NCBI GenBank assembly: GCA_031316115.1
Contig: JALDRC010000002.1
Coordinates: 248,001 to 312,000 of the forward strand
Length of the DNA: 64,000 nt
Direction: 5' to 3'
Source of the DNA: Nitrososphaeraceae archaeon
Lineage (GTDB): Archaea > Thermoproteota > Nitrososphaeria > Nitrososphaerales > Nitrososphaeraceae
Position 1 is the first letter of the stretch, and every line of letters starts with the position of its first letter. This document shows positions 23,608 through 25,921 of the stretch, piece after piece. Position numbers and translations under genes: made by a program. Under the pieces are notes generated by a model that saw only the letters and a program-made list of their open reading frames with translations, was not told the origin of the DNA and did not search any database.

Positions 23608-23755
23608 TCTGGACGATTTAGGATATAATCTATCAATTTATGAACTTTTTGTTTAGCCATTTTACTAGCGAAGAAGAATAAATGAGGTATTTTTTAGCAA
23701 TGATATATAGAAGAAAATTAATATTTAAATATTATTGGATAGTCTTGTTCTCAAG

Positions 23756-24853
23756 ATGGTTACAGTTGATAAAGTTATTTCTTCCTTGAAAAAGGTTGTT
23801 GATCCTGAATTACATAAAGATATAGTATCAATGGGAATGATTAAAGACTTGAATATTAACAATGATAAAGTATCCTTTACTCTTGAACTCACTACACCTG
23901 CATGTCCATTTAATAGCGAAATAGAACAAGATGTTAGGAACGCAATATCTGATTTAGGAGTGCAAAATTTGGATCTAAAAGTTACTGCAAAAGTTATGGA
24001 GGGAAGATCAATATCTTTGGACGAGCTTTTGCCAGGGGTTAAGAATATTATTGCAGTAGCCAGTGGAAAAGGCGGTGTAGGAAAAACCACTGTATCGGTA
24101 AATTTAGCAATTTCGCTTGCCAAAACTGGAGCAAAGATTGGCCTTTTGGATGCTGATATCTACGGACCAAGTGTTCCCTTGATGTTCGGGTTAAAAGATA
24201 CCCCATCGGTGGAGAATAATAAAATTCAACCCCCTATAGCTGAAGGGGTGAAGATAATTTCTATGGGATTTTTCTATGAACAGTCTCAACAGGCTGGAAT
24301 TTATAGAGGTCCTATTATATCTGGAATAATTAAACAATTTTTGACCGATGTAAATTGGGGTGAACTTGATTACCTTATAATTGACCTTCCACCAGGAACA
24401 GGAGATGCGCCATTAACGATAGCACAAACTATTCCTATAACTGGGATATTAGTTGTTACTACCCCACAAGATGTTGCGATGAATGTAGCAGTAAAGGCTA
24501 TCGGAATGTTTAACAAATTAAATGTCCCTATAATAGGAGTGGTAGAAAATATGAGTTACTTAGAATGTCCTAATTGTAAATCACATGTACATATTTTCGG
24601 AACTGGAGGAGCAAAGAAAATAAGCGATGAATTCAAAATCCCACATCTTGGAGAAATCCCATTACATCCTCAAATTATGCAAGGAAGTGATATTGGGAAA
24701 CCTACTGTAAGTTCTGACCCTGATTCTTTACAGAGTCAAGTTTTTTTAAAGATAGCTAAATCTGTAGCTGGCAGAATAAGTGTTATAGCGGCAGAAATGA
24801 TGTTACAAGAAAACCAAGAAGAACAAGCAAACAAAAACGGACAAACAAATTAA
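23756..24853 (+). CDS. Mrp/NBP35-type Fe-S cluster carrier ATPase with DUF59 domain
   Basis: P-loop ATPase that transfers Fe-S clusters to apoproteins. 365 residues from the ATG at 23756; a TTG 21 bp upstream is less likely. An N-terminal MIP18/DUF59 domain (VVDPELHKDIVSMGMI, TTPACP) is followed by the deviant Walker A ASGKGGVGKTTVSVNLA, DADIYGPSVP, IIDLPPGTGD and the cluster-binding CPNC pair in LECPNCKSHVHIFG. The C terminus is a Gln/Asn-rich tail. Same fusion architecture as bacterial ApbC/Mrp. Confidence 0.95.
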   Translation: MVTVDKVISSLKKVVDPELHKDIVSMGMIKDLNINNDKVSFTLELTTPACPFNSEIEQDVRNAISDLGVQNLDLKVTAKVMEGRSISLDELLPGVKNIIAVASGKGGVGKTTVSVNLAISLAKTGAKIGLLDADIYGPSVPLMFGLKDTPSVENNKIQPPIAEGVKIISMGFFYEQSQQAGIYRGPIISGIIKQFLTDVNWGELDYLIIDLPPGTGDAPLTIAQTIPITGILVVTTPQDVAMNVAVKAIGMFNKLNVPIIGVVENMSYLECPNCKSHVHIFGTGGAKKISDEFKIPHLGEIPLHPQIMQGSDIGKPTVSSDPDSLQSQVFLKIAKSVAGRISVIAAEMMLQENQEEQANKNGQTN

Positions 24854-24888: not shown

Positions 24889-25437
24889 ATGCCTATCAAC
24901 GAGAAACATATAGAAATTTTAAAAAAACCATTTGGAGATCTAATTTCAAACGAAGATGTTACAAAAAACAAGATTCTGGAAATTATAAATAAACTCACAA
25001 AAGGGAATCAAATTCCTCTGATTACTGTAGGCGATGCCACTACTGAAAAGATATTATCATTTGGGATTTTCCCCCAATTAGCTATAATCGACGGAGTGGA
25101 AAGACGGATCAAACGTTCTGAGGTAAAGAATTTAAAAATAAAAAAGGCTTATTCAAGAAATGAGAAAATAAAGATCTATAAATGCATAAACAAGCAAGGG
25201 AGTATTTCTTCAAAGGCATACAACATAATAAAAACAATCATAACAAAGAAAGAAAAGGCAATATTATGTGTAGATGGAGAAGAGGATCTATTGGCATTAC
25301 CCGTTTTTGTATTGGCCTCTGAAAACTCTTTGATATTATATGGGCAGCCTCTAGAAGGATTAGTGGTAGTCAAGACCGATAAAGAATTAAGGGAAAAAGC
25401 ACAAAATTTGTTAGATGACATAGGTCTAGTTGACTAG
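24889..25437 (+). CDS. GTP-dependent dephospho-CoA kinase (DUF359 family)
   Basis: Last step of CoA synthesis in archaea. 182 residues. Contains ITVGDATTEKILSFGIFPQLAIIDGVERR near residues 45-73 and VDGEEDLLALPVFVLA with GQPLEGLVVV near the end, the signature of the archaeal kinase that uses GTP. It follows mrp by 35 bp. Its stop codon lies inside the 5' stem of a C/D box sRNA on the same strand. Confidence 0.92.
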   Translation: MPINEKHIEILKKPFGDLISNEDVTKNKILEIINKLTKGNQIPLITVGDATTEKILSFGIFPQLAIIDGVERRIKRSEVKNLKIKKAYSRNEKIKIYKCINKQGSISSKAYNIIKTIITKKEKAILCVDGEEDLLALPVFVLASENSLILYGQPLEGLVVVKTDKELREKAQNLLDDIGLVD

Positions 25438-25505
25438 AGGGAATGATGATGTGGTGGCTATATGATTAAATATGAATGATTAACTTTACCACTTTCTGAC
25501 CCTCT
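25436..25505 (+). ncRNA. C/D box small guide RNA (70 nt)
   Basis: A complete archaeal C/D sRNA layout is visible. A 5' stem AGAGGG (25436-25441) pairs perfectly with CCCTCT (25500-25505). C box ATGATGA is at 25443-25449. A 12-nt first guide (25450-25461) precedes D' (ATGA, variant of CTGA) at 25462-25465. C' is a relaxed (A)TGAATGA at 25472-25479. A 16-nt second guide leads to a perfect D box CTGA at 25496-25499. Such RNAs direct 2'-O-methylation by fibrillarin. The 5' stem overlaps the stop codon of the dephospho-CoA kinase gene, so it may be processed from that mRNA. Targets were not identified. Confidence 0.85.
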
Positions 25506-25538
25506 ATACTATAAAATAAAAAACATATTTCCAGTGGT

Positions 25539-25679
25539 TCATTGATCACAGCCGCAACCTTCAAGCTCGTTATCGCTTACAGTGATACGATAAAATTGAA
25601 TACATTTTGAACAAAGACTGTATCCTTCATTCGTCTTAGAATCACAAAATGAGCACTTATTGATTCTATTTTGTGGCAT
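25539..25679 (-). CDS. Small cysteine-rich zinc protein (46 aa)
   Basis: Begins MPQNRINKCSFCDSKTNEGY and continues with SLCSKC, then ends LEGCGCDQ. Two CxxC pairs separated by about 11 residues form a probable zinc ribbon; a CxC near the end could hold another ion. ATG start and TGA stop. No family recognised. Lies just downstream of the C/D sRNA on the opposite strand. Confidence 0.65.
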   Translation of the reverse strand: MPQNRINKCSFCDSKTNEGYSLCSKCIQFYRITVSDNELEGCGCDQ

Positions 25680-25753: not shown

Positions 25754-25921
25754 TTAACTATATATCAAATCATTAACTTGCTTGTTGTGGCATGAACATT
25801 CACATTTTTTTAATGTTATATCAAAAGAACAGTCATGACCTTCCCCACAAAAGTCATCCATTGGGATTTCTATTGGACAGTCTGGATGTCTGTTTTTATT
25901 GCAGAAATACGAGATTACCAT
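25754..25921 (-). CDS. Small cysteine/histidine-rich protein (55 aa)
   Basis: Contains seven cysteines and several histidines: YFCNKNRHPDCPIEIPMDD, FCGEGHDCSF and KCECSCHNKQ. The density of Cys and His points to a metal-binding mini-protein with one or two sites. ATG start; the next small zinc gene follows after 75 bp on the same strand. No family recognised. Confidence 0.6.
   Translation of the reverse strand: MVISYFCNKNRHPDCPIEIPMDDFCGEGHDCSFDITLKKCECSCHNKQVNDLIYS

Follow-up and report, generated by a model that had tools for sequence, protein, structure and literature searches.

A C/D box sRNA with a conserved guide kept behind the predicted dephospho-CoA kinase gene of ammonia-oxidising archaea

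C/D box sRNAs are a known class of archaeal RNA, and accelerated evolution of their guides has been stressed (PMC7994747). A described subset overlaps the 3' end of an open reading frame (Tripp et al. 2017, as presented in PMC7994747), so that the sRNA contains the stop codon of the upstream gene, frequently within its C box, and is transcribed with the host gene; both features appear to recur at the locus considered here. According to the same article, 25% of archaeal C/D box sRNA genes hold the stop codon of the upstream gene, almost half of them within the C box (PMC7994747); such overlap is an already described phenomenon. Four other archaeal sRNAs, Tte sR114, Iho sR21, Pca sR28 and Sac sR115, are directed at helix 18 of 16S rRNA in the decoding centre (PMC4644070, main text), which is also where the guide analysed below is predicted to pair.

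Here we describe an element in a 64,000-nucleotide stretch of DNA (the window) from a Nitrososphaeraceae archaeon. It is a genuine C/D box sRNA, absent from Rfam, unusually well kept and presumably ordinary in mechanism: the RNA class itself is already known, and what we report is one guide RNA held in the same genomic place across ammonia-oxidising archaea. A literature search on the sRNAs of these archaea, with most subscription journals outside its reach, found no paper on this element.

Anatomy and genomic setting of the sRNA

The initial annotation had called a C/D box sRNA at the end of the dephospho-CoA kinase gene, and the call is borne out by the anatomy of the element (Table 1), its conservation in four families and its conserved guide. 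The C and D boxes are perfect, as had been claimed. The terminal stem is perfect as well, at 7 bp rather than the 6 bp originally given, and the element is correspondingly longer. Guides had been proposed at 25450-25461 and 25480-25495; the extent of the first (D') stands, while the second (D) begins later once the C' box is aligned with those of relatives. A single nucleotide lies between stem and C box, the spacing expected of kink-turn geometry in C/D RNAs, and across the aligned relatives the internal boxes read NUGA (D') and RUGAUU (C'), both degenerate. Boxes, stem and spacing together are those of a C/D box sRNA. Randomised 64-kb windows contain on average 0.1 strict C/D elements whose stem is 4 bp or longer, and one with a stem of 7 bp or more occurred in 0 of 60 such windows.

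Table 1. Features of the sRNA locus, in window positions.
Feature	Position	Strand	Basis or remark
Mrp/ApbC-type iron-sulfur carrier	23735-24853	+	PF10609, E 1.2e-101; 35-nt gap to kinase
DUF359 / GTP-dependent dephospho-CoA kinase CDS	24889-25437	+	PF04019, E 1.8e-33; stop TAG 25435-25437
Archaeal C/D box sRNA	25435-25506	+	anatomy, covariance match, Rfam sub-threshold matches
Terminal stem, 5' strand (TAGAGGG)	25435-25441	+	7 bp with 25500-25506; inner pairs conserved
C box (ATGATGA), perfect	25443-25449	+	sequence and alignment
D' guide (TGTGGTGGCTAT)	25450-25461	+	between C box and D' box
D' box (ATGA)	25462-25465	+	alignment of relatives
C' box (ATGATTA)	25476-25482	+	alignment of relatives; spacer separates D' from C'
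D guide (ACTTTACCACTTT), orphan	~25483-25495	+	extent set by aligned C'
D box (CTGA), perfect	25496-25499	+	sequence and alignment
Terminal stem, 3' strand (CCCTCTA)	25500-25506	+	pairs with 25435-25441

A covariance model (R1) scores the window copy at 73.1 bits, this copy being one of the 28 sequences from which the model was built. Rfam 15 has no family that reaches its gathering threshold here, the best being RF00181 (22 bits against 36). Of the 17 sub-threshold matches in 25300-25650, however, 16 are C/D-box snoRNA models lying over the sRNA on the + strand, and RF01140 (sR20) is the best archaeal sub-threshold match for two related loci (L100 and L030). The genome also carries the fibrillarin and Nop5 genes that go with C/D box sRNAs, side by side on one contig (C14; fibrillarin, PF01269, E 1.6e-87; Nop, PF01798, E 3.8e-69).

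The identification of the upstream coding sequence as a dephospho-CoA kinase is supported by its match to PF04019/DUF359; the best NCBIfam name, NF041125 (GTP-dependent dephospho-CoA kinase), agrees with it at E 1.9e-23 and 82.9 bits, below that model's cut-off of 300. We take TK1697 of Thermococcus kodakarensis to be a DUF359 member as well. GTP-dependent dephospho-CoA kinase activity has been demonstrated for that protein (PMC6650551). The Mrp/ApbC-type carrier gene upstream is likely to share the kinase transcript.

The claim that nothing else in the gap behind the kinase is conserved did not hold up. A 46-aa cysteine-rich ORF (25539-25679, - strand), convergent with the sRNA, resembles a Double zinc ribbon (E 0.0092, below cut-off), and a similar small protein is found downstream of the sRNA in another genome (G023). 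A 55-aa cysteine-rich ORF follows at 25754-25921 (- strand), the first 50 residues of which have no Pfam match.

Conservation across the order

The element lies 3' of the kinase gene in 28 of 30 DUF359 loci, namely the window's own and 29 from relatives. The two exceptions are L026 and L027, and the genome of the latter (G015) carries the element on another contig. In the alignment of the 28, the stem core, the boxes and the D' guide core are invariant. The boxes are kept in 28/28, with ATGAAGA as the C box in one, so the C/D reading, which the initial annotation had staked on their not being lost in relatives, stands. Conservation of the stem is confined to its inner 3-4 G-C pairs: the three outer pairs, those that involve the stop codon, are unpaired in 14-20 of the 28 relatives, and covariation at the outer pairs is not above that of shuffles. 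RNAalifold gave no convincing fold common to the aligned relatives.

A covariance-model search found the element in 113 of the 201 genomes of the order, including, among those listed, 51 of the 52 genomes of the window's family. In 98 of the 113 it starts -1 to 28 nt past the PF04019 match on the same strand, and in two it is 405 and 665 nt from the kinase; in 8 the kinase falls outside the matches listed and in 5 it is on another contig. Duplicate loci (L064, identical to L011, and L108, identical to L032) are omitted from the counts. Matches in G041 (E 0.003) and G090 (E 0.007), whose sequences fail the C/D guide pattern, were treated as chance matches.

A scan of genome contigs with a pattern independent of the kinase returned at least 120 stretches. 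Of the 80 titles listed, 77 bear thaumarchaeal names and the remaining 3 say only 'archaeon'; the genera among them include Nitrosopumilus, Nitrosarchaeum, Nitrosotenuis, Nitrosocosmicus, Nitrososphaera and Nitrosocaldus. Among the scan matches listed, 106 of 120 adjoin a DUF359-like upstream ORF, and tblastn placed the kinase upstream in 12 of the remaining 14, the exceptions being L309, in which the end of the locus cuts the kinase side, and L316, in which no kinase was found in the locus. Other families of the order contributed 20 3' flanks of DUF359 genes, and 0 of 20 contain a C/D element, against 2 of 2000 shuffled flanks. In a wider sample of the phylum 72 of 300 genomes match; the strong matches all come from this order except one (G303, E 1.8e-8), in which the element is not adjacent to a kinase.

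The D' guide and its predicted rRNA target

We consider it probable that this C/D box sRNA has a housekeeping role in ammonia-oxidising archaea, that it derives from the 3' end of the kinase transcript and that its D' guide directs methylation of 16S C522. The sRNA would be produced as the 3' end of that transcript, with the kinase gene serving as transcript donor and not as regulatory partner. L7Ae should bind at both kink motifs, C/D and C'/D', and be joined by Nop5 and fibrillarin, and nucleases would trim the rest. The D' guide (core GGUGGCUGU) would then pair with 16S CAGCCGCCG, and the nucleotide opposite guide position 5, predicted to be C522, would be methylated. An sRNA drifting away from the kinase would gain a promoter of its own or another host gene. 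Transcription, processing and methylation are steps that we infer.

Guides of this class act by a fixed register, in which guide position 5, counted from the D' box, faces the nucleotide to be methylated. In the window, 25450-25459 pairs with 16S AGCCGCCGCG (positions 451-460 of the genome's own 16S rRNA) with three G-U pairs, and G25457 faces the C predicted to be methylated. C522 and G527 are numbered after E. coli, with 16S G530 as the anchor. The initial annotation had proposed a search of both guides for antisense matches to rRNA and tRNA. Taken alone, the window's D' guide pairs with 16S rRNA no better than shuffles (73/300). With relatives pooled, however, the top rRNA place for 28 distinct D' guides is the 16S 530 loop, with a mean score of 24.96 against 19.79 for the next 16S place, and this score is equalled in 0 of 400 column permutations. 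The target stretch is identical in the 12 of 12 genomes read. The predicted outcome is thus 2'-O-methylation at 16S C522, a nucleotide of the decoding-centre 530 loop.

The main alternative is that the D' guide acts chiefly on helix 43 of 23S rRNA, in the GTPase-associated centre, or on 23S and 16S together; the predicted target there would be what we take to be C1075 in E. coli numbering. We hold this to be unlikely, though it has substance. The genome's own 23S rRNA contains GCAGCCACC, which forms 7 Watson-Crick pairs with the window's D' guide; helix 43 is the best 23S place and a close second overall (mean 21.21, equalled in only 4 of 400 permutations); and 113 of 115 guides have U at position 7, a better fit to the 23S A than to 16S. 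L107 and L110 have a C there, which suits only 16S. Guide position 10 is C or U in 115/115, a base that pairs with 16S G527 and never with the 23S C, although the extraction pattern permitted only these two letters at that position whereas the covariance-model search did not. Helix 43 also varies among the 9 carriers read (CAGCCACC in 1, CAGCCAUC in 6, CAGCUAUC in 2) with no change in the guide, whereas the 16S stretch is constant. The extraction pattern left no choice at guide positions 3-6, 8 and 9 and a choice between the two pyrimidines at 7 and 10, so the invariance of the core among the 115 guides comes in part from selection by that pattern; the covariance-model search was free of the constraint, and none of the loci that it passed on failed the pattern.

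Outside the order, C/D-like elements occur in L174 (1-1222), L185 (1-1266) and L182 (1-1264), with no kinase ORF recognised by eye beside them. Their related guides, GAUGGCU in the first two and GGGGUGGCU in L182, would suit the 23S forms over 16S and could possibly represent a one-letter target switch to helix 43.

A more elaborate proposal, which we think improbable, is that the same D' guide marks both 16S C522 and 23S C1075 and that its place behind a CoA-biosynthesis gene ties the ribosome mark to CoA supply in ammonia oxidisers. The wobble-tolerant guide, with U at position 7, G at 8 and a pyrimidine at 10, would on that account be a compromise between the two targets.

For the D guide no supported target was found: permutations equalled the best score in 141/200 cases for the window guide, 106/200 for group f9, 146/200 for g6, 121/200 for g10 and 25/200 for g1 (L106 and L134 omitted). 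The f1 set reached 0/200, though it had been picked for containing CCA, which biases the test, and all non-f9 loci pooled gave 1/200 at a weak score. Matches of D guides to tRNAs extend to 8 bp at most, in a comparison without controls. Of the two guides, then, only D' has a supported antisense match to rRNA, and only on the alignment of relatives. The D guides of L116-L118, L097, L014 and other Nitrososphaeraceae loci have an ACCA motif in common; pairing with the other guide does not account for it, since it is kept in L116-L118, whose D' guide has lost UGGU. The window contains a further C/D box sRNA at 33574-33519 (- strand), in which the C, D', C' and D boxes are all perfect and the stem has 4 bp. 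Its D guide forms 9 contiguous Watson-Crick pairs, an uncontrolled match, with 23S CCCUAGUAC, which we take to lie just before the sarcin-ricin loop.

Source transcript, stop-codon overlap and relation to known sRNAs

The initial annotation left two origins for the sRNA, cutting from the kinase mRNA or an internal promoter, and comparison of attached with detached copies favours the former. We scored 123 loci for the promoter motif T[AT]TTTAT at the right distance from the sRNA; the question of a promoter in detached copies was posed beforehand, and the letters of the motif were fixed after the upstream sequences had been viewed. Where the stem lies within 30 nt of the kinase stop the motif is present in 0 of 110 loci. 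At a distance of 70-803 nt (L256, L252, L317, L333, L266, L225, L269, L226 and L305) it is present in 9 of 9, standing at -27 to -31; the background is 29 in 2400 random slots. Three other detached loci (L259, at 2658 nt from the kinase, L316 and L223) lack it, and L309 falls outside the tally. Because attached copies have no TATA box and nearby detached copies have one, trimming out of the kinase transcript is the most likely origin of the attached sRNA, and the simplest; PMC7994747 describes such an origin for other archaea.

Seven of the nine detached loci share a related promoter and look like one clade, probably a single detachment event. The other two belong to genera otherwise attached: L225 (genome G023) to g12, with 8 of 11 attached, 2 not placed and G023 detached, and L226 (genome G207) to g48, with 5 of 6 attached and G207 detached. 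At least 3 separate detachments are therefore likely. A response-regulator-like ORF (named by eye) ends 61 nt ahead of the sRNA in L259 and L316 and is perhaps its new host gene. Attached and detached copies together provide a natural experiment in the making of such RNAs.

In the window the whole kinase stop codon lies inside the terminal stem of the sRNA. Across 108 loci (L064, L094-L099, L110 and ORFs of fewer than 50 codons omitted) the stop precedes the core stem in 34 and falls within or beside the stem in 53; the C box contains it in 7 loci and the D' box in 14. Counted from the C box, it lies anywhere between -31 and +20. Even among the five loci of the window's genus it falls in the stem only in the window, the four relatives having it 13-14 nt before the C box. 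Since the stop wanders in this way, from ahead of the stem to as far as the D' box, its position inside the stem is incidental. We therefore discarded the view that the codon has a function in the stem, whose outer pairs are likewise unconserved. Where the stop is in the D' box, the kinase frame continues through the C box and the D' guide, giving tails such as DDVVAV; in L014-L018, L023, L024, L028, L106 and L107 about 27 nt serve as both protein code and guide RNA.

That drift also bears on the idea that kinase expression is tied to sRNA maturation, as had been suggested; the means would be a kink-turn in the 3' end of the kinase mRNA that regulates the kinase via L7Ae. The linkage of kinase and sRNA spans four families, and L7Ae is known to bind mRNA kink-turns (PMC5539422). 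Yet the stop position is not conserved, the element is retained at distances of 70-2658 nt from the kinase and also where no kinase precedes it, and the conserved antisense guide is something a bare kink-turn would not need; 3'-overlapping sRNA genes, moreover, had neutral or slight effects on a reporter (PMC7994747). The suggested coupling is not upheld, and we regard such regulation as very improbable. That the element is an inverted repeat, arisen by chance or resembling a terminator, and lacks any C/D function has next to no likelihood: the strand does fold as a hairpin (-19.2 kcal/mol, z -3.4) and its outer pairs do not covary beyond shuffles, as noted above, but box conservation has already refuted it and randomised windows hold no such element.

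Returning to the reading that we favour, of a housekeeping guide RNA cut from the kinase transcript, its retention in place in ammonia-oxidising archaea suggests that the mark predicted for the 530 loop matters to them, because archaeal guides reportedly evolve fast. The covariance model and the single-nucleotide prediction are available for methylation mapping in cultured Nitrosopumilus or Nitrososphaera.

The element shares with other archaeal C/D box sRNAs its two pairs of boxes (C/D and C'/D'), its terminal stem and its size, the register between guide and box and the machinery genes of the genome; it differs in that both the D' guide and the genomic place are kept over four families, with no Rfam 15 family attained. 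Its similarity to sR20 (RF01140) lies mainly in the boxes; the guide differs, and the match is far below the gathering score. The four sRNAs directed at helix 18 target E. coli A535 and G515, whereas C522 is predicted here; the main text of PMC4644070 makes no mention of C498 or C499, its likely numbering for the C522 site. In comparison with the described ORF-3'-overlapping sRNAs, one and the same RNA here has the upstream stop in its stem, C box or D' box depending on the genus, and its nearby detached copies bear a TATA-like box.
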